Shown: positions 2,004 to 6,836 of the stretch, one piece after another
Layout: the number at the start of each line of letters is the position of its first letter
How positions within the stretch are numbered: position 1 is the first letter of the stretch
DNA from: Thermoplasmata archaeon
Lineage (GTDB): Archaea; Thermoplasmatota; Thermoplasmata; Thermoplasmatales; Thermoplasmataceae
DNA length: 6,836 bases
Direction of reading: 5' to 3'
NCBI GenBank assembly: GCA_021793945.1
Contig: JAJYRT010000096.1
Location: 1-6,836 of the forward strand
Notes under the pieces: model-generated
Seen by the model: the letters and a program-made list of their open reading frames with translations, nothing else
The model's database searches: none
What the model was told of the DNA's origin: nothing
Position numbers and translations under genes: made by a program

Positions 2004-2513
2004 TTAAGCGTAGGTGTCAATTAAGCCGATATCCTTTCCGTTGTGGACAAGCCTTCCCTGAACCTCACAAGCCTTCGACATTGTGTTTGTTATGTAGCAG
2101 TCAGAACTGGATTCTTTTGCCAGTTGAATTACGGTTTCTTCTGACTCAGGACTTGTTATGATTACTGTATACAGAATCCTCTCAAATGTCCTTGGCCTGC
2201 TAATCCTGAATTCACCATTCACCTTTATCTCCAATTCCTTTATTTTTAGGTCCATTGAACCTGCATGTTCTCCGTAGTGAATACATTGACACATAGCAAG
2301 ACTGGAGATAAAATATGCAAGTGGACTTGGACCATTCTCATCTGATGCCCACGAGAAATTTTGATTGTCAGGCATAGCTTCGGAATGGAGATTGTCACCC
2401 TTAATTACTGATACACTCACCGTTCCCTTTACAGTGCCAACTTTGTCGAATTTAGAGAACCTTTCCATTCTATCCATCATTCTTTTCCTGAAATCAGCAT
2501 CAAAATTAACCAT
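2004..2513 (-). CDS. OsmC/Ohr-family protein
   Basis: A 169-residue protein with the OsmC layout. Proteins of this family are dimeric cytoplasmic thiol peroxidases, mostly acting on organic hydroperoxides, with two cysteines in the active site. PSPLAYFISSLAMC at 62-75 matches the family's P-x-x-L-x-x-x-L-(A/S)-x-L-x-x-C helix, making C75 the probable peroxidatic cysteine; C139 in SSDCYITNTM fits the second cysteine, normally within C-P-(I/V)-x-N-T-(L/M). C77 and C149 are extra cysteines near these sites. The usual catalytic Arg is not evident from sequence alone, so hydroperoxidase activity is likely rather than certain; many OsmC-like proteins have unknown substrates. The first ATG is chosen because a TATA box is centred 26 nt upstream, which implies a leaderless message. 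It lies downstream of the CARF-type regulator on the same strand but has its own promoter with the shared palindrome. Confidence 0.85.
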   Translation of the reverse strand: MVNFDADFRKRMMDRMERFSKFDKVGTVKGTVSVSVIKGDNLHSEAMPDNQNFSWASDENGPSPLAYFISSLAMCQCIHYGEHAGSMDLKIKELEIKVNGEFRISRPRTFERILYTVIITSPESEETVIQLAKESSSDCYITNTMSKACEVQGRLVHNGKDIGLIDTYA

Positions 2514-2534: not shown

Positions 2535-2561
2535 TTAATAAATAGTCACTGTCAACCGTTG
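2535..2561 (-). promoter_or_regulatory. Promoter of the OsmC-like gene with palindromic element (site A)
   Basis: On the minus strand CAACGGTTG (2553-2561) is followed by exactly 10 nt and then the TATA-like TTTATTAA (2535-2542), centred 26 nt before the ATG at 2513. The element is a 9-bp palindrome around a central G/C pair. The same arrangement occurs before three other genes in this window. A position just upstream of TATA/BRE is typical of archaeal activators, but overlap with the initiation complex could also allow repression. Confidence 0.65.
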
Positions 2562-2575
2562 TATATGAGGGCTGA

Positions 2576-2582
2576 GCAAAAA
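2576..2582 (-). terminator. Possible oligo-T terminator after the regulator gene
   Basis: Downstream of the regulator stop codon the minus strand becomes T-rich (ATATTTTATTCC, then CATTTTTGC), ending in a run of five T. Archaeal RNA polymerase can terminate on such tracts without a hairpin. The signal is weak, and read-through into the OsmC-like gene remains possible. Confidence 0.3.
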
Positions 2583-2616
2583 TGGGAATAAAATATCTGC
2601 CATATTCCAATGCACA

Positions 2617-3342
2617 TTATATGATTACTATCTTTCCAAGTGCGGTAATTTCAATTTCCAATCTGCCTCTAGACTGCCTGTTCGCGCTAACCAGTCCCAG
2701 ATCAACCAGTCCCTGGGAATCTTCTGATCCGTTTATGTGCCTGCTGATAAGAGATTTGTCAAGTCCGGTCAGATCGGAAAGCGCCTCAAGACTTTTGACA
2801 GATCCGTGAGCTCTGGATAATGCATTCAATATGGCAAGTTTCGACTCTGAGAGTATTTTCTGATATCCAAGTTTGAGTATGGGTAGCATGTGTATTCCAC
2901 TCTGGTCGATCCAGAACGTCCGTATGCCAAAAATGAACGCAGACGAAATAGATGTGCAAGAGAGGATCTTCCCCCCATCTGTAACATTCAACAAAATATC
3001 ATTATATTCAGAAAAGTTATTGTTGTGAATGTACCTTACAGCTTCCAGAACCTCGTTTAGATCACCTGACTTGAGCTTAATCTCCTCGACTTCCACTGCA
3101 AGGGCACTTGATATTTGCTTAACAAATTCCTTGAATGAAACCTGCAACGGCTGGCTCGCCTTACCCCAGACCTCTTCGTGGATTATTATAAGTTTGTCAA
3201 CGGGCATCAGCCTTATTCCAGATCTTATGCCGTTGTAAGACTGCCCATCTGTGTAAACGGCTATCTGGAGCGTTTTGTTGGGGATTAAGCCATTAGTCCC
3301 TTCCATGCTCATAAGTAAACAGTTATCTGTACTTATAGTCAT
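2617..3342 (-). CDS. CARF-like domain plus winged-helix transcriptional regulator (Csa3/HFX_2341-like)
   Basis: A 241-residue two-domain protein. Residues about 24-158 look like a CARF-type Rossmann fold: strand LQIAVYTDG (25-33), strand KLIIIHEE (50-57), a long helix (95-106), then YNDILLNVTDGGKILS (113-128), where N-V-T-D-G-G-K matches the N-x-(T/S)-x-G-x-(K/R) loop that contacts nucleotide ligands in CARF proteins. Residues about 165-241 form a MarR/ArsR-like winged helix, with SLEALSDLTGLDKSLISRHI (184-203) as the helix-turn-helix and SRGRLEIEITALGKIVI as the wing. Known Csa3-type CARF regulators bind cyclic oligoadenylates; binding here is not shown. There is no cas gene or CRISPR array in the window. 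The ATG at 3342 is preferred over Met11/Met13 because a TATA-like sequence lies 25-26 nt before it. The gene carries the shared palindrome in its own promoter, suggesting autoregulation, and is divergent from the zinc-finger membrane protein gene. Confidence 0.7.
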   Translation of the reverse strand: MTISTDNCLLMSMEGTNGLIPNKTLQIAVYTDGQSYNGIRSGIRLMPVDKLIIIHEEVWGKASQPLQVSFKEFVKQISSALAVEVEEIKLKSGDLNEVLEAVRYIHNNNFSEYNDILLNVTDGGKILSCTSISSAFIFGIRTFWIDQSGIHMLPILKLGYQKILSESKLAILNALSRAHGSVKSLEALSDLTGLDKSLISRHINGSEDSQGLVDLGLVSANRQSRGRLEIEITALGKIVII

Positions 3343-3363
3343 ATACTTTCAATGTGCATCTCC

Positions 3364-3390
3364 CTTACAAATTCTTTCCGTCAACGGTTG
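3364..3390 (-). promoter_or_regulatory. Promoter of the regulator gene with palindromic element (site B)
   Basis: On the minus strand CAACCGTTG (3382-3390) is followed by exactly 10 nt and then TTTGTAAG (3364-3371), a weak TATA box centred 25-26 nt before the ATG at 3342. Spacing is identical to site A. The weak TATA would make this promoter dependent on an activator, or keep the regulator at low level. Its presence before the candidate regulator's own gene suggests a feedback loop. Confidence 0.6.
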
Positions 3391-3491
3391 CATTTTTCCA
3401 TTTCCCTCATGTGTGATGTAATGTTCCCCGGCAGCCAACACTGCACATCTATTCTTCGAAGAGGCAAGAGTTCTCACGCGCTATAATTTTG

Positions 3492-3518
3492 CAAGGGTTG
3501 TGCGACTTACCTTAAATA
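3492..3518 (+). promoter_or_regulatory. Promoter of the zinc-finger membrane protein with variant element (site D)
   Basis: CAAGGGTTG (3492-3500) differs from the palindrome CAACSGTTG at one base; it is followed by exactly 10 nt and then the TATA-like CTTAAATA (3511-3518). Transcription should start near 3540, leaving a leader of about six bases before the ATG at 3547. This is the weakest of the four elements by sequence, but the spacing match is exact. Confidence 0.5.
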
Positions 3519-3546
3519 GGATTCAGGTCTCATTCTATTGACAGAT

Positions 3547-4146
3547 ATGACTGAAAATAAATGTAATGAATGTGGAATGGTATTCGATTCGAAAGATAAA
3601 TTGATGGAACATGCGAAGATGCATATGCATCCTGCAGGCGTCTCCGGCGCAAATTCAATGAACAGAAAGATGAAAATGGCTGTGATTCCAGCTATAATCG
3701 GAGGCATATTAGGTGGAATAGTAATGGCCATCATACTTATTGCAGGAGCATTGGGTATGGGACTTTCGTCCACCACATTCTTCCTGATCATGGGAATGGC
3801 GCTTGGTGCGGGGATGGGATCTGGTGTTGTCGTGGGTCTTGCAGCACATTTTACTGTAAGCATAGTTGCAGGTGCCATATTCGGAGTTATAGTATCGTAC
3901 GTTAAACCTCTCAGATTAACATCAGCTTCAAGGTCACTTGGGTTTGGGTTGATTTTTGGTGTGGTCCTGTATCTTGTGTTCTTCCTTCCATTAGCTATGA
4001 CATCCTTTTCATCAGTTATGATGTCACTGATGGGTGCCAAAGCCTCTATAATGGCGGGAGATGTGTTAATAATAGGGTTTGTAGGACACTTACTTTATGG
4101 GATAGTTCTTGGAATAACATCGTTCTACATTGCAAAGAAGCTATGA
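3547..4146 (+). CDS. Membrane protein with N-terminal C2H2 zinc finger
   Basis: A 199-residue protein with two parts. Residues 6-26 are a classical C2H2 finger: C6-x2-C9-x12-H22-x3-H26 with the hydrophobic F13 and L19 at the usual core positions; H28 adds another possible ligand. From residue 44 on it is very hydrophobic and rich in Gly, Ala and Met, with about five membrane segments (roughly 44-72, 77-98, 99-118, 131-151, 171-196) and no catalytic motif that I recognise. I choose ATG 3547 over TTG 3538: its MTEN start aligns with MTEE of the small zinc-finger protein at 5656, and the TATA spacing leaves a short leader. The finger should face the cytoplasm (inference). It might sense metal or redox state, or bind DNA or a protein at the membrane. 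It is divergent from the CARF-type regulator gene, and both promoters carry the shared element. Confidence 0.7.
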   Translation: MTENKCNECGMVFDSKDKLMEHAKMHMHPAGVSGANSMNRKMKMAVIPAIIGGILGGIVMAIILIAGALGMGLSSTTFFLIMGMALGAGMGSGVVVGLAAHFTVSIVAGAIFGVIVSYVKPLRLTSASRSLGFGLIFGVVLYLVFFLPLAMTSFSSVMMSLMGAKASIMAGDVLIIGFVGHLLYGIVLGITSFYIAKKL

Positions 4147-4155
4147 ATTGTCAAA

Positions 4156-4176
4156 GAGGGGATTATAAACTCCCTC
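4156..4176 (+). promoter_or_regulatory. Promoter of the disulfide reductase gene, TATA box inside an inverted repeat
   Basis: ATTATAAA (4162-4169) is a good TATA box with a predicted start near 4192. It is enclosed by GAGGG (4156-4160) and CCCTC (4172-4176), a 5-bp inverted repeat that could be an operator masking the TATA box or, less likely, a weak hairpin ending the upstream gene. The CAACSGTTG element is absent. A GAGGA Shine-Dalgarno-like site at 4190-4194 precedes the ATG at 4202, so translation from a read-through transcript is also possible. Confidence 0.45.
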
Positions 4177-4201
4177 AATACATAATTTTGAGGAAAGATA
4201 C

Positions 4202-5584
4202 ATGATGGAAAAATTTGACTTGATAGTAATTGGCGCCGGGTCAGGACTGGATGTCGCGCTTGCCGCGGCCGGTGATGGCCTTAAGGTAGCAATTGTGGAA
4301 AGGGATAAGATGGGTGGAACCTGCCTGAACCGAGGTTGCATACCCTCGAAGATGCTGCTTCACAGCGCTGATGTGGTTGATTCTATTAAACGCGCTGAAG
4401 ATTTCGGGATACACGTAGATGGGTTCTCCGTGGACTTTAACGACATTATCTCCAAAATCAGCAATTTTGTTGACAGCGAGGCAAACGAAATAGAGAAATC
4501 ATTTTCTGGAGACGGTAATCCAAAACTTATCAAGGGGGAAGCGAAATTTGTTGGGCATAAGCAACTGAAAGTCGGTGAAAAAGTCATTGCGGCCGACAAA
4601 ATTCTTATAGCGAGCGGCGGAAGACCATTAATTCCGGAAATTCCTGGATTGAAGGAATCTGGGTATATAACTAGCAATGAGGCGCTGAGACTTTCCAAGC
4701 TGCCAGAAACCATGATCATAATTGGCGGCGGATATATCGCAGCAGAAATGGCACATTTCTTCGGATCCATGGGAACAAGAATTACAATATTGCAGAGAGG
4801 GGACGCCATGCTCTCACGGGAGGATGATGAAATATCGGCGCTATTTACTGGTGTTTTTTCAAAAAAACACAATGTACTTCTCTCGACGGAGGCTTTGAAC
4901 GTGAGAAAGGATCACGGAAAATTTATAGTCAAGACATCAACAAAAGGAGCAGAACATAAGAATGAAATAGAGTCGGATGAGATTCTTATTGCCTCAGGTC
5001 GCGCGCCAAATACAGAAAACCTTCAGCTTGAAAATAGTGGCGTTAAACTCAATTCGCTGGGATACGTAAATGTAGATGAATATCTTGAGACTGACGAGAG
5101 TGGAATTTATGCCCTTGGAGATGTGGTGGGAAAATATCTTTTCAAGCATAGTGCAAATCTGGAAGCTCAGTTTAGCTATTTCAACATTACAGATTCGGCA
5201 AAGAAGATATCTGTGAATTATTTTGCAACGCCTCATGCAGTATTCACATCGCCTCAGGTCGCGGCCGTGGGTTTGACCGAAAGAGAAGCGAAAAAGATGG
5301 GTTACAACTTTGTAATCGGAAGGTCTAAGTTCATAAACACTGGAATGGGGATGGCGATCAAAGATTACGACGGATTGGTGAAGTTAATAGTTGAAAAATC
5401 CACTGAAAAAATTCTTGGATGTCATATAATTGGAAGCGACGCAGCTACTCTAATCCATGAGGTCGTTGTTGCAATGATATCAGGAGATGGTGTGCTGAGC
5501 AATATTAGTAATGCTATCCATGTCCATCCCGCATTATCGGAAGTGATCCAGAGGGCTGCCATTTCATGCAGAGAACAGTTATAA
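4202..5584 (+). CDS. Class I flavoprotein disulfide reductase, mycothione reductase/dihydrolipoamide dehydrogenase-like
   Basis: A 460-residue member of the class I pyridine nucleotide-disulfide oxidoreductases, full length for the family. These FAD enzymes pass electrons from NAD(P)H to a disulfide through a cysteine pair. Visible are the FAD motif GAGSG (11-15), redox-active GGTCLNRGCIPSK (C41, C46), ASGGRP (137-142), the nucleotide-binding GGGYIAAE (175-182), ALGD in the FAD-binding region and the C-terminal HPALSE with H442 and E447 as catalytic pair. GAGSGLDVA (in place of the usual GxGPGG) and YLFKHSANLEA resemble mycothione reductases more than lipoamide dehydrogenases. The second strand of the cofactor domain ends in ITILQRGD without the acidic residue typical of NAD enzymes, suggesting NADPH. 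No 2-oxoacid dehydrogenase gene is nearby, so a low-molecular-weight thiol disulfide is the more likely substrate (inference). ATGs at 4202 and 4205 are both possible starts. It follows the zinc-finger membrane gene by 55 nt. Confidence 0.88.
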   Translation: MMEKFDLIVIGAGSGLDVALAAAGDGLKVAIVERDKMGGTCLNRGCIPSKMLLHSADVVDSIKRAEDFGIHVDGFSVDFNDIISKISNFVDSEANEIEKSFSGDGNPKLIKGEAKFVGHKQLKVGEKVIAADKILIASGGRPLIPEIPGLKESGYITSNEALRLSKLPETMIIIGGGYIAAEMAHFFGSMGTRITILQRGDAMLSREDDEISALFTGVFSKKHNVLLSTEALNVRKDHGKFIVKTSTKGAEHKNEIESDEILIASGRAPNTENLQLENSGVKLNSLGYVNVDEYLETDESGIYALGDVVGKYLFKHSANLEAQFSYFNITDSAKKISVNYFATPHAVFTSPQVAAVGLTEREAKKMGYNFVIGRSKFINTGMGMAIKDYDGLVKLIVEKSTEKILGCHIIGSDAATLIHEVVVAMISGDGVLSNISNAIHVHPALSEVIQRAAISCREQL

Positions 5585-5598
5585 ATGCAGGTCACCAT

Positions 5599-5625
5599 CA
5601 ACCGTTGTGGCTAAATTTATATATA
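5599..5625 (+). promoter_or_regulatory. Promoter of the small zinc-finger gene with palindromic element (site C)
   Basis: CAACCGTTG (5599-5607) is followed by exactly 10 nt and then TATATATA (5618-5625), part of a longer TTTATATATA box. Transcription should start near 5647, leaving a short leader of about nine bases before the ATG at 5656. The element begins only 15 nt after the stop codon of the reductase gene, so this small gene has its own promoter and is not just the tail of an operon. Confidence 0.65.
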
Positions 5626-5655: not shown

Positions 5656-5751
5656 ATGACCGAAGAGAAAATCGAGTGTAAATTATGCAATATGGGTTTT
5701 GCATCAAAGAAAGAATTGGACGAGCATATCTCAAAACATCACAAACATTAG
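5656..5751 (+). CDS. 31-residue C2H2 zinc-finger protein
   Basis: A very small protein consisting almost wholly of one C2H2 finger: C8-x2-C11-x12-H24-x3-H28, with H29 and H31 as extra histidines at the tail. The core residues F15 and L21 are in place. The same frame is open upstream to an ATG at 5566 inside the reductase gene, but the promoter at 5599-5625 and the GGTGAT Shine-Dalgarno-like site just before 5656 fix the start at 5656. The finger resembles that of the membrane protein at 3547 (shared pattern C-x2-C-x-M-x-F-x-S-K-x-x-L-x-E-H), as if one were a soluble copy of the other. A single finger is too small for strong sequence-specific DNA binding on its own; metal binding or protein contact is more likely. 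A terminator-like hairpin follows. Confidence 0.75.
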   Translation: MTEEKIECKLCNMGFASKKELDEHISKHHKH

Positions 5752-5765
5752 TCATGTAATCTGAC

Positions 5766-5787
5766 GCGAAGACTTCGTAATTTTTTT
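5766..5787 (+). terminator. Terminator after the small zinc-finger gene
   Basis: A short stem, CGAA-GAC-TTCG (5767-5777) extended by a G-T pair, is followed by AA and seven T (5781-5787), then a second run of six T a few bases on. It lies 14 nt after the stop codon of the small zinc-finger gene and only has its T-tracts on the plus strand. The stem is short, but the oligo-T tracts alone could stop archaeal RNA polymerase. Confidence 0.5.
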
Positions 5788-5815
5788 ACCAATTTTTTAA
5801 TGCTTGCGAGCGGGA

Positions 5816-5838
5816 ATTCCTCTTTCGTGAGAGGGAAT
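5816..5838 (+). repeat. Imperfect hairpin, possible left end of an IS605-derived remnant
   Basis: ATTCCTCT (5816-5823) pairs with AGAGGGAAT (5830-5838) with one bulged G and a 6-nt loop. It lies about 200 bp before the hairpin at 6041-6060. IS605-family elements carry a subterminal hairpin at each end, so the pair could mark an internally deleted element; the sequence alone does not prove the link. Confidence 0.25.
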
Positions 5839-5934
5839 GAGATCGAGCGAAACTCTATTATTTCTCTCAACTTATTGTACTGTCCGCTGGCAGACAGAAG
5901 TGAAACAGGTCGGATCGCATATTGCTTCATGCGT

Positions 5935-6119
5935 GCCTGCATCCGTAAAGTCAGAAGGTTTGGCATGAAGGAAGAGTACCTTCGGGCCGAGGGGAATTCA
6001 AGCCCATGGAGATTCTGCCAGCAACCTTTGAAGTGAGAAGCTCCCTGCGAAAGCTGGGAGAGGAGGTCATGTGCACATTCCTAGATTTCATGTTTCGTGT
6101 TATGACCGACAGAAAATAG
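5935..6119 (+). pseudogene. tnpB: Remnant of IS605-type tnpB, C-terminal end, frameshifted
   Basis: From about 5935 the plus strand reads ACIRKVRRFGMKEEYLRAEG, resembling the stretch after the zinc ribbon of IS605-type TnpB proteins (N-A-A-x-N-I-x-R-F-G). One base further on, from the four-G run at 5991-5994, the neighbouring frame reads GEFKPMEILPATFEV, the common G-E-x-K-P-(V/M)-E tail of archaeal TnpB. Restoring one G to that run would join the two. The second frame then runs to a TAG at 6117-6119. The catalytic RuvC-like part is absent; upstream sequence back to the zinc-finger gene shows no TnpB motifs. TnpB is an RNA-guided nuclease encoded by IS200/IS605 transposons; this copy cannot be active. 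Short length makes the call moderate, but the hairpin at 6041 supports it. Confidence 0.45.
6041..6060 (+). ncRNA. Terminal hairpin of the IS605 remnant, omega-RNA-like
   Basis: CTCCC-T-GC at 6041-6048 pairs with GC-T-GGGAG at 6053-6060 around a GAAA tetraloop of the stable GNRA class, with one T-T mismatch. Preceded by GAAG and followed by AGGAGGTCA, it has the look of the right-end hairpin of IS605-family elements, which in intact elements forms part of the guide (omega) RNA overlapping the tnpB 3' end. A second small stem, CCTTC-GGGCC-GAGGG, lies upstream at about 5979-5993. Whether any RNA is made here is unknown. Confidence 0.4.
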
Positions 6120-6207
6120 CAGACCTAAAAAAAGTCGGACAATAGAGATTGACTACACATGCTTTTATACATCTACTCCAGAACTTCCCGTTGCAAGCTC
6201 CCATATA

Positions 6208-6600
6208 TTAGGCTTCATTCGGCTCTCTTGCTATAACCCTGAACGCCTTCTGGTTTCCGAATATCACCTTGGATTCTCCGGTACCCAAAACCACATGGAG
6301 ATATATGTGGAGAAATCTCATCGCAGGCAGGTCCAATTGGGAAATTCTGAAAAATACATCTACGGGAATATCCTTTCGCGTGTATCCGGAAATGTTTGAA
6401 CATTCTCACCATAACCAGTTGGCAGATGGATAATGAATTGATCCATTGTCCTGTTGCAATCCTCTTTGGTTCTGTGGAAAGAATAACTTCCATGCCGGAT
6501 CTATGCCCACCTGTTTCTTGTCAGTATCTTCATGAAATCAAATGTTTCAACGTCTCGATACATTCCTGCATCCTCACAAGTATTTCCGCCTAAATTTGTG
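6208..6600 (-). pseudogene. Decayed minus-strand gene of unknown family
   Basis: The last 56 codons, from 6378 to the TAA at 6208, read as convincing protein: IPVDVFFRISQLDLPAMRF, then HVVLGTGESKVIFGNQKAF and REPNEA. The same frame continues upstream with one in-frame TGA at 6406-6408 and then DTDKKQVGIDPAWKLFFPQN up to about 6540. Before that, protein-like sequence (NTCEDAGMYRDVETFDF) continues in a different frame to about 6600, suggesting a frameshift near 6540. Other frames in the middle, such as DQFIIHLPTGYGENVQTF, also look plausible, so the exact lesions are unclear. I recognise no family. The alternative, that only the last 56 codons are meaningful, cannot be excluded. Confidence 0.4.
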
Positions 6601-6669
6601 GCAACCTTAGAAATGCGTTTAGTGAGTTGCTCAGGCTTGTGTTCATTCCCCAAACCAGAATGCCTAAAT

Positions 6670-6836
6670 TTAATGTGAATTTCTATCAGGCGATGGGATA
6701 TGTTTCCTGAGAGATAATGATATCAACGCCATAACGATCAATGCAGCGGAAATTATGCTCCACATGATAACAGGATAAGGATGAAGAAACTGCAGGATAA
6801 GCGTGCCAAGGAACGGGGAGAATGGAAAAATGAAGC
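6670..6836 (-). CDS. C-terminal end of a membrane transporter, probably MFS type, cut by window
   Basis: On the minus strand the frame enters at the window edge and runs 54 codons to the TAA at 6670-6672. It reads FIFPFSPFLGTLILQFLHPY, then a strongly hydrophobic segment VIMWSIISAALIVMALISL and a basic, hydrophilic tail SLRKHIPSPDRNSH. Two membrane segments, the first with an F-S-P-x-x-G-x-x-x-L-Q motif and the last followed by a basic cytoplasmic tail, are what helices 11 and 12 of a major facilitator superfamily transporter look like. The substrate cannot be judged. The decayed gene at 6208-6600 lies just downstream on the same strand. Confidence 0.6.
   Translation of the reverse strand, partial: FIFPFSPFLGTLILQFLHPYPVIMWSIISAALIVMALISLSLRKHIPSPDRNSH

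Follow-up and report, generated by a model that had tools for sequence, protein, structure and literature searches.

Four promoters in positions 1 to 6,836 of contig JAJYRT010000096.1 from a Thermoplasmata archaeon (the whole stretch of 6,836 nucleotides (nt) analysed here, hereafter the window) carry one palindrome, with the core CAACSGTTG and the full form CCGTCAACSGTTGACGG, directly before their TATA boxes. They precede genes for an OsmC-family protein, a putative regulator with a predicted CARF domain and winged helix-turn-helix (wHTH), a probable zinc-finger membrane protein and a 31-residue zinc-finger protein. The palindrome is a real, conserved and local operator, a variant of the arrangement known for the palindrome of the archaeal protein Csa3a, placed over other genes. 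The site, its fixed spacing, its conservation and, in two genomes, its locality are observed directly. Taking all its parts together, we consider it probable that the palindrome serves a small, self-controlled regulon of this Thermoplasmata lineage. We infer that a dimer of the CARF-wHTH protein would occupy it directly upstream of the B recognition element (BRE) and TATA box and would aid the loading of transcription factor B (TFB) and TATA-binding protein (TBP), acting mainly as an activator. Its targets would be the OsmC gene, the zinc-finger membrane protein gene with the disulfide reductase gene behind it, and the 31-residue zinc-finger gene; the regulator would also feed back on its own weak promoter. 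The CARF domain may sense a small nucleotide or RNA-end ligand.

The exact core occurs three times in the window, each time in a promoter, whereas 2000 dinucleotide shuffles gave a mean of 0.036 copies and never three or more. With up to one mismatch there are seven copies against 0.88 expected. On the minus strand, the operator of the OsmC gene spans 2549-2565 (exact core CAACGGTTG at 2553-2561) and is followed by the TATA-like box TTTATTAA at 2535-2542, while that of the regulator's own gene spans 3378-3394 (exact core CAACCGTTG at 3382-3390) and leads to a weak TATA-like box, TTTGTAAG, at 3364-3371. On the plus strand, the zinc-finger membrane protein gene has its operator at 3488-3504 (CAAGGGTTG at 3492-3500, with one mismatch) and the TATA-like box CTTAAATA at 3511-3518. 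The 31-residue zinc-finger gene has its operator at 5595-5611 (exact core CAACCGTTG at 5599-5607) and the TATA box TATATATA at 5618-5625. The spacer between core and TATA box is exactly 10 nt at all four sites. The first three also carry a G at position +8, on the TATA side of the centre, which the site at 5599 lacks. The remaining one-mismatch copies, at 1328, 3145 (within the regulator gene) and 6022, lie away from the regulon promoters. From the end of the motif to the ATG we count 39, 39, 46 and 48 nt for the OsmC, regulator, membrane finger and 31-residue finger genes, respectively, so that leaderless or short-leader messages are plausible. An earlier note, made from the letters of the window, had described the four sites with their spacing, the threefold occurrence of the exact palindrome above chance and the fit to leaderless or short-leader messages, and all of this is borne out. 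It had also seen the flanks extend the symmetry toward RTCAACSGTTGYR; in fact they read TCAACSGTTGA and, across relatives, CCGTCAACSGTTGACGG.

We compared promoters in the window and in 13 related Thermoplasmata loci (L and G numbers denote loci and genomes). Six of the 48 positions examined are internal genes and were excluded, namely four reductase genes and the OsmC genes of L007 and L008, which lie directly behind the membrane protein gene. Site and spacing are kept at 38 of the other 42, the four without a site being the OsmC remnant of L003, the HPP gene of L069 and the finger genes of L070 and L080. These copies comprise 27 exact ones, 10 with a single mismatch and one with two. The count includes a site in L003 at the vacated position of the finger-membrane gene, where the reading frame that follows stops after 17 codons, and the two-mismatch copy before the L004 regulator, which has the usual spacing and ties with another copy further up; two rows from L077 are a single physical palindrome. 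The regulator promoter of L071, with CAACTGTTG at the usual spacing, is additional to the 38. As a control, 114 other upstream regions from the window and 12 loci yielded two matches within one mismatch. One, exact, in L008, is the finger-gene operator viewed from an overlapping, probably spurious open reading frame (ORF); the other, with one mismatch, lies at L006:11449.

An ungapped profile of the 38 copies keeps the 10-nt spacing to the TATA region constant throughout, and its majority sequence is the 17-bp palindrome CCGTCAACSGTTGACGG, centred on S. The centre base is S in 31 copies and A or T in seven; T stands at -5 in 21 and A at +5 in 27. Of the 38 copies, 37 have the +8 G, and only the 5599 site of the window departs from this; the partner base, C at -8, occurs in 19. 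The +8 G is an independent sign, since the copies were selected on the 9-mer and on how far it lies from the gene, irrespective of the base at +8. The more conserved TATA-side half suggests a polarity toward the core promoter. A single palindrome stands between the divergent OsmC and 31-residue finger genes of L077 (G078), 10 nt away from a TATA box in either direction, an arrangement to be expected of a symmetric dimer site serving two promoters.

The bare 9-mer was compared genome-wide with a reversed control, and enrichment was rejected: there are 89 copies against 80 in eight genomes, and 12 against 20 in the complete genome G002. The bare 9-mer is not clearly enriched; the signal is carried by position and clustering alone. 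We inspected remote copies in G002 and in G108, which is one contig of about whole-genome size, using CAACSGTTG in G002 and CAACNGTTG with the following +8 G in both. Of 32 such copies, 29 lie inside ORFs. The three that lie between ORFs all lack the combination of a +8 G and a TATA box at 10 nt: two have the G in one direction without a TATA box there, and the third (L162) has an AT-rich stretch but lacks the G. Among these copy patterns no wider regulon was seen in G002 and G108, and the regulon looks local in these two genomes. Across 117 genomes of the order, the full pattern of site, G and TATA box has 26 matches, 17 of them at regulon promoters; of the other nine, five fall in ORFs and four between genes (in G097, in G114 and in the same stretch of G102 and G104). 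A match is found in 12 of 12 genomes with any regulator match and in 10 of 105 others, a comparison that is partly circular, the pattern having been derived from these loci.

The small local operator regulon of an OsmC-like protein, a regulator and two zinc-finger proteins that the earlier note proposed thus gains support on several sides: from conservation before orthologous genes (38/42), from rarity in unrelated upstream regions (2/114) and from locality in two genomes. The concern raised there that the motif might be equally common in coding DNA holds for the bare 9-mer and fails for the 9-mer in its promoter arrangement, with 17 of 26 matches at regulon promoters. The note already placed a regulator gene in the cluster; its CARF nature, the +8 G, the flavin disulfide reductase and the two-way site of L077 are new here.

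Two explanations dispense with an operator. Chance or compositional coincidence would suit bare 9-mers that occur near the background rate genome-wide, but the conserved spacing and profile, the shuffle and control counts, the remote-copy inspection and the conservation in orthologous promoters leave it with practically no credit. The palindrome might instead belong to the core promoter, as an extended element that a special TFB uses, which the fixed TATA distance and the G near the BRE would allow. However, it is palindromic, faces promoters in both directions in L077 and, among the copies inspected in G002 and G108, was not found elsewhere in its promoter arrangement, and we regard this explanation as very improbable.

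The best candidate for the binding protein is the cluster's own regulator (2617-3342, minus strand, 241 amino acids). It is the natural candidate because its gene lies inside the cluster, is preceded by the site in all 10 loci where it is intact, and co-occurs with its targets. The regulator is intact in nine of the 117 genomes, interrupted in G102 and G103 and reduced to a remnant of 30 residues in G036; a search of genome contigs with the regulator profile gave eight loci, and the loci nearest to the window agree with its place in the Thermoplasmata. OsmC is found in 8 of 9 genomes with the regulator against 2 of 108 others (Fisher p 6e-10), and the finger-membrane protein in 8 of 9 against 0 of 108 (p 1e-11), with matches weaker than E 1e-50 excluded (six genomes for OsmC, five for the finger-membrane protein). 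Sites also occur in G078 and G058, where no regulator was matched, and in G036 with its remnant. These genomes weigh against binding by the CARF protein and would suit an operator of another, unlinked transcription factor with the CARF protein as merely one target. All three assemblies are split into many contigs and are possibly incomplete, and both the co-occurrence of regulator and targets and the site before every intact regulator gene speak against an unlinked factor, which we think rather unlikely.

The N-terminal domain of the regulator matches PF19810 (HFX_2341_N) with 31.5 bits, just above the gathering cut-off of 30. This family is matched in 33 of the 117 genomes, 14 of them above the cut-off, mostly by proteins other than the regulator; G058 (L083) and G056 (L081) of the same order, for example, have PF19810 proteins that the regulator profile does not match. 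The predicted model (mean pLDDT 74, pTM 0.54) has a CARF domain followed by a MarR-type wHTH. A Foldseek search with this model returned Csa3 first, with both the N-terminal CARF domain and the C-terminal wHTH aligned. Fold and profile together place the protein, as modelled, in the CARF superfamily, with a Rossmann-like CARF domain. In the putative recognition helix, six positions carry the same residue in all 21 aligned sequences (from 43 homologues), as would be expected of an unchanged operator. The regulator scores 19.3 bits with the Csa3 family TIGR01884, below its curated cut-off of 60.2, and in the domain-by-domain VIA-align comparison other CARF and MarR proteins rank slightly above Csa3.

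Csa3a of the Sulfolobales also joins a CARF domain to a wHTH. Csa3a and its CRISPR-associated promoter palindrome, CAPPa, are reported to go together across genomes, and Csa3a to be an activator (PMC4333418, PMC8699464), whose site in Sulfolobus is an imperfect palindrome directly adjoining BRE and TATA on their upstream side. Loading of TFB and TBP by an activator is favoured here because the geometry resembles this arrangement, the TATA region lying 10 nt away in each of the 38 promoters. The palindrome itself differs from CAPPa in sequence and setting: CAPPa reads TCCCN8GGGA and stands before acquisition genes and CRISPR leaders, whereas the consensus here is CCGTCAACSGTTGACGG and stands before OsmC, zinc-finger and reductase genes. 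We read the regulator as a Csa3a-like activator over OsmC, itself, the zinc-finger proteins and the flavin disulfide reductase, and not over cas genes.

The same operator and the same CARF-wHTH binder would also be compatible with repression, the dimer hindering TFB or RNA polymerase and being released by a ligand. The +8 G adjoins the BRE region, and autoregulation is common among repressors. Against this, a gap of 10 nt separates the core from the TATA box, which stays uncovered; sites of archaeal repressors usually lie over the BRE, the TATA box or the start. The TATA-like boxes of the regulator and of several OsmC promoters look weak by eye, as in activated promoters. We give repression a small but appreciable chance.

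Several points count against the favoured reading of an operator with an activating, Csa3a-like regulator. The copies of the site share descent, and their counts are therefore not independent events. The template-modelling (TM) score to Csa3 is about 0.4, from a model of middling confidence, and the best hit in a sequence search of solved structures is Card1 at E 0.21. Activation is argued solely from where the site lies. As for Csa3a, one study reports nonspecific binding to its own palindrome, and another reports specific binding that is unaffected by cyclic tetraadenylate (cA4).

The regulator appears to stand apart from CRISPR loci. No cas family was found among the seven ORFs scanned, in a scan confined to the window. 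In six genomes with an intact regulator (G002, G005, G006, G007, G008 and G108), the cas1 match is on another contig or more than 0.5 Mb away. A search of 14 genomes for the Cas10 palm domain PF22335 detected it in one, namely G102, with its interrupted regulator and a Csx1 gene nearby, and in 0 of 9 that have the regulator intact. CRISPR-made cyclic oligoadenylate is therefore less likely in those nine. The weight of this negative is lowered by the cas1 match in six of the nine and by most genomes being drafts, and it is tempered by a report that ranks III-A as the commonest of the CRISPR subtypes in Thermoplasmatota (PMC12669027). The Csx1 gene near the broken regulator of G102 (L070), and by eye also of G103 (L071), where it likewise follows the regulator, argues against a full separation from CRISPR. 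In both, the regulator frame is broken near the CARF/wHTH junction and the operator is retained (L070:1793-2513; L071, about 230 to 952). No OsmC match was found in G102 and G103.

Two protein families in the cluster, OsmC-type peroxidases and flavin disulfide reductases, presumably point to thiol or peroxide stress, and the cluster genes may deal with such stress. We tentatively suggest, as a possible though doubtful scenario, a CARF factor that has departed from CRISPR immunity and through which a nucleotide messenger or RNA-damage product arising under thiol or peroxide stress would turn on a dedicated set of peroxide/disulfide and zinc-finger genes via the 17-bp palindrome at its set distance from the TATA box. 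If the favoured operator reading is right, a CARF regulator outside CRISPR loci would gain a concrete operator, a target list and a candidate sensor. The four promoters would be ready reporters with which to look for the ligand, and the rigid 10-nt spacing and two-way use would offer a clean model of TFB and TBP loading by archaeal activators.

Other CARF regulators share some of these features. MM_0565 of Methanosarcina mazei is a CARF-wHTH protein that binds its own promoter and has targets beyond CRISPR; it differs in adjoining a type I-B CRISPR locus and in that no distinct binding motif was reported for it (PMC7465815). RtcR is a CARF regulator outside CRISPR that activates a stress operon, with tRNA fragments bearing a cyclic phosphate as ligand (PMC7790460); it differs in being bacterial and in having an NtrC-like AAA+ domain (PMC4012209). 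The HFX_2341-like proteins resemble the regulator in its N-terminal domain, and none of the papers returned by a literature search names HFX_2341. Regulators of the OhrR/MarR type control OsmC/Ohr genes through a wHTH. The cluster is alike in placing a wHTH protein over an OsmC-type gene and differs in the CARF sensor part. In the open-licence literature we found no description of the motif or of a CARF regulator over OsmC; an earlier mention of this regulator family in CARF classification work is possible.

Among the target genes, OsmC (2004-2513, minus strand, 169 amino acids) scores 55.3 bits with PF02566 against a cut-off of 27.5, and its C75 and C139 are invariant in 17 of 17 aligned sequences (from 26 homologues); score and conserved cysteines both point to membership of this family. 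The gene at 3547-4146 (plus strand) would encode, from this ATG, 199 amino acids with one N-terminal C2H2-type finger (Pfam 21.7 bits against a cut-off of 25.2) and a hydrophobic part that, judged by eye, is probably a membrane portion. It is followed at 4202-5584 (plus strand) by a FAD/NAD disulfide oxidoreductase of the mycothione reductase or dihydrolipoyl dehydrogenase type, which has no site of its own and is perhaps co-read with the finger-membrane gene. Its closest solved structures are mycothione reductase (E 1.3e-88) and dihydrolipoyl dehydrogenases. Among the best 25 of 81 NCBIfam matches it stays below every cut-off, the nearest being TIGR01350 (394.3 against 408.8) and NF004947 (520.7 against 592). 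The 31-residue C2H2-type zinc-finger protein (5656-5751, plus strand) scores 26.9 bits against a Pfam cut-off of 27. It has relatives in L003, L007, L008, L072, L077 and L080; counting the window, the operator is present at six of these seven places, L080 being the exception.

Across the relatives, the gene set is mostly retained, with rearrangements. Plasmids and viral contigs yielded no relatives of the regulator. In L003 the finger-membrane gene is missing and OsmC is reduced to a remnant; at L003:3889-4183 the operator of the lost gene is retained, with the reductase gene next. Downstream of the regulator and OsmC remnant, L003:6083-7742 holds genes for a heavy-metal-binding (HMA) protein and for another flavin disulfide reductase, and a pair that looks similar by eye lies at L008 4776-6463. 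A weakly HPP-like membrane protein is encoded at L007:7809-8267, L008:1843-2304, L069:5444-5917 and L005:12948-13406. The three copies that were scanned score below the TM_HPP cut-off. In L007 and L008 the gene carries an operator of its own; in L069, and as judged by eye in L005, it comes after OsmC. The end of the window, 5760-6836, holds short reading frames; part of it resembles L005:11583-11891 by eye and may be the remnant of a mobile element.
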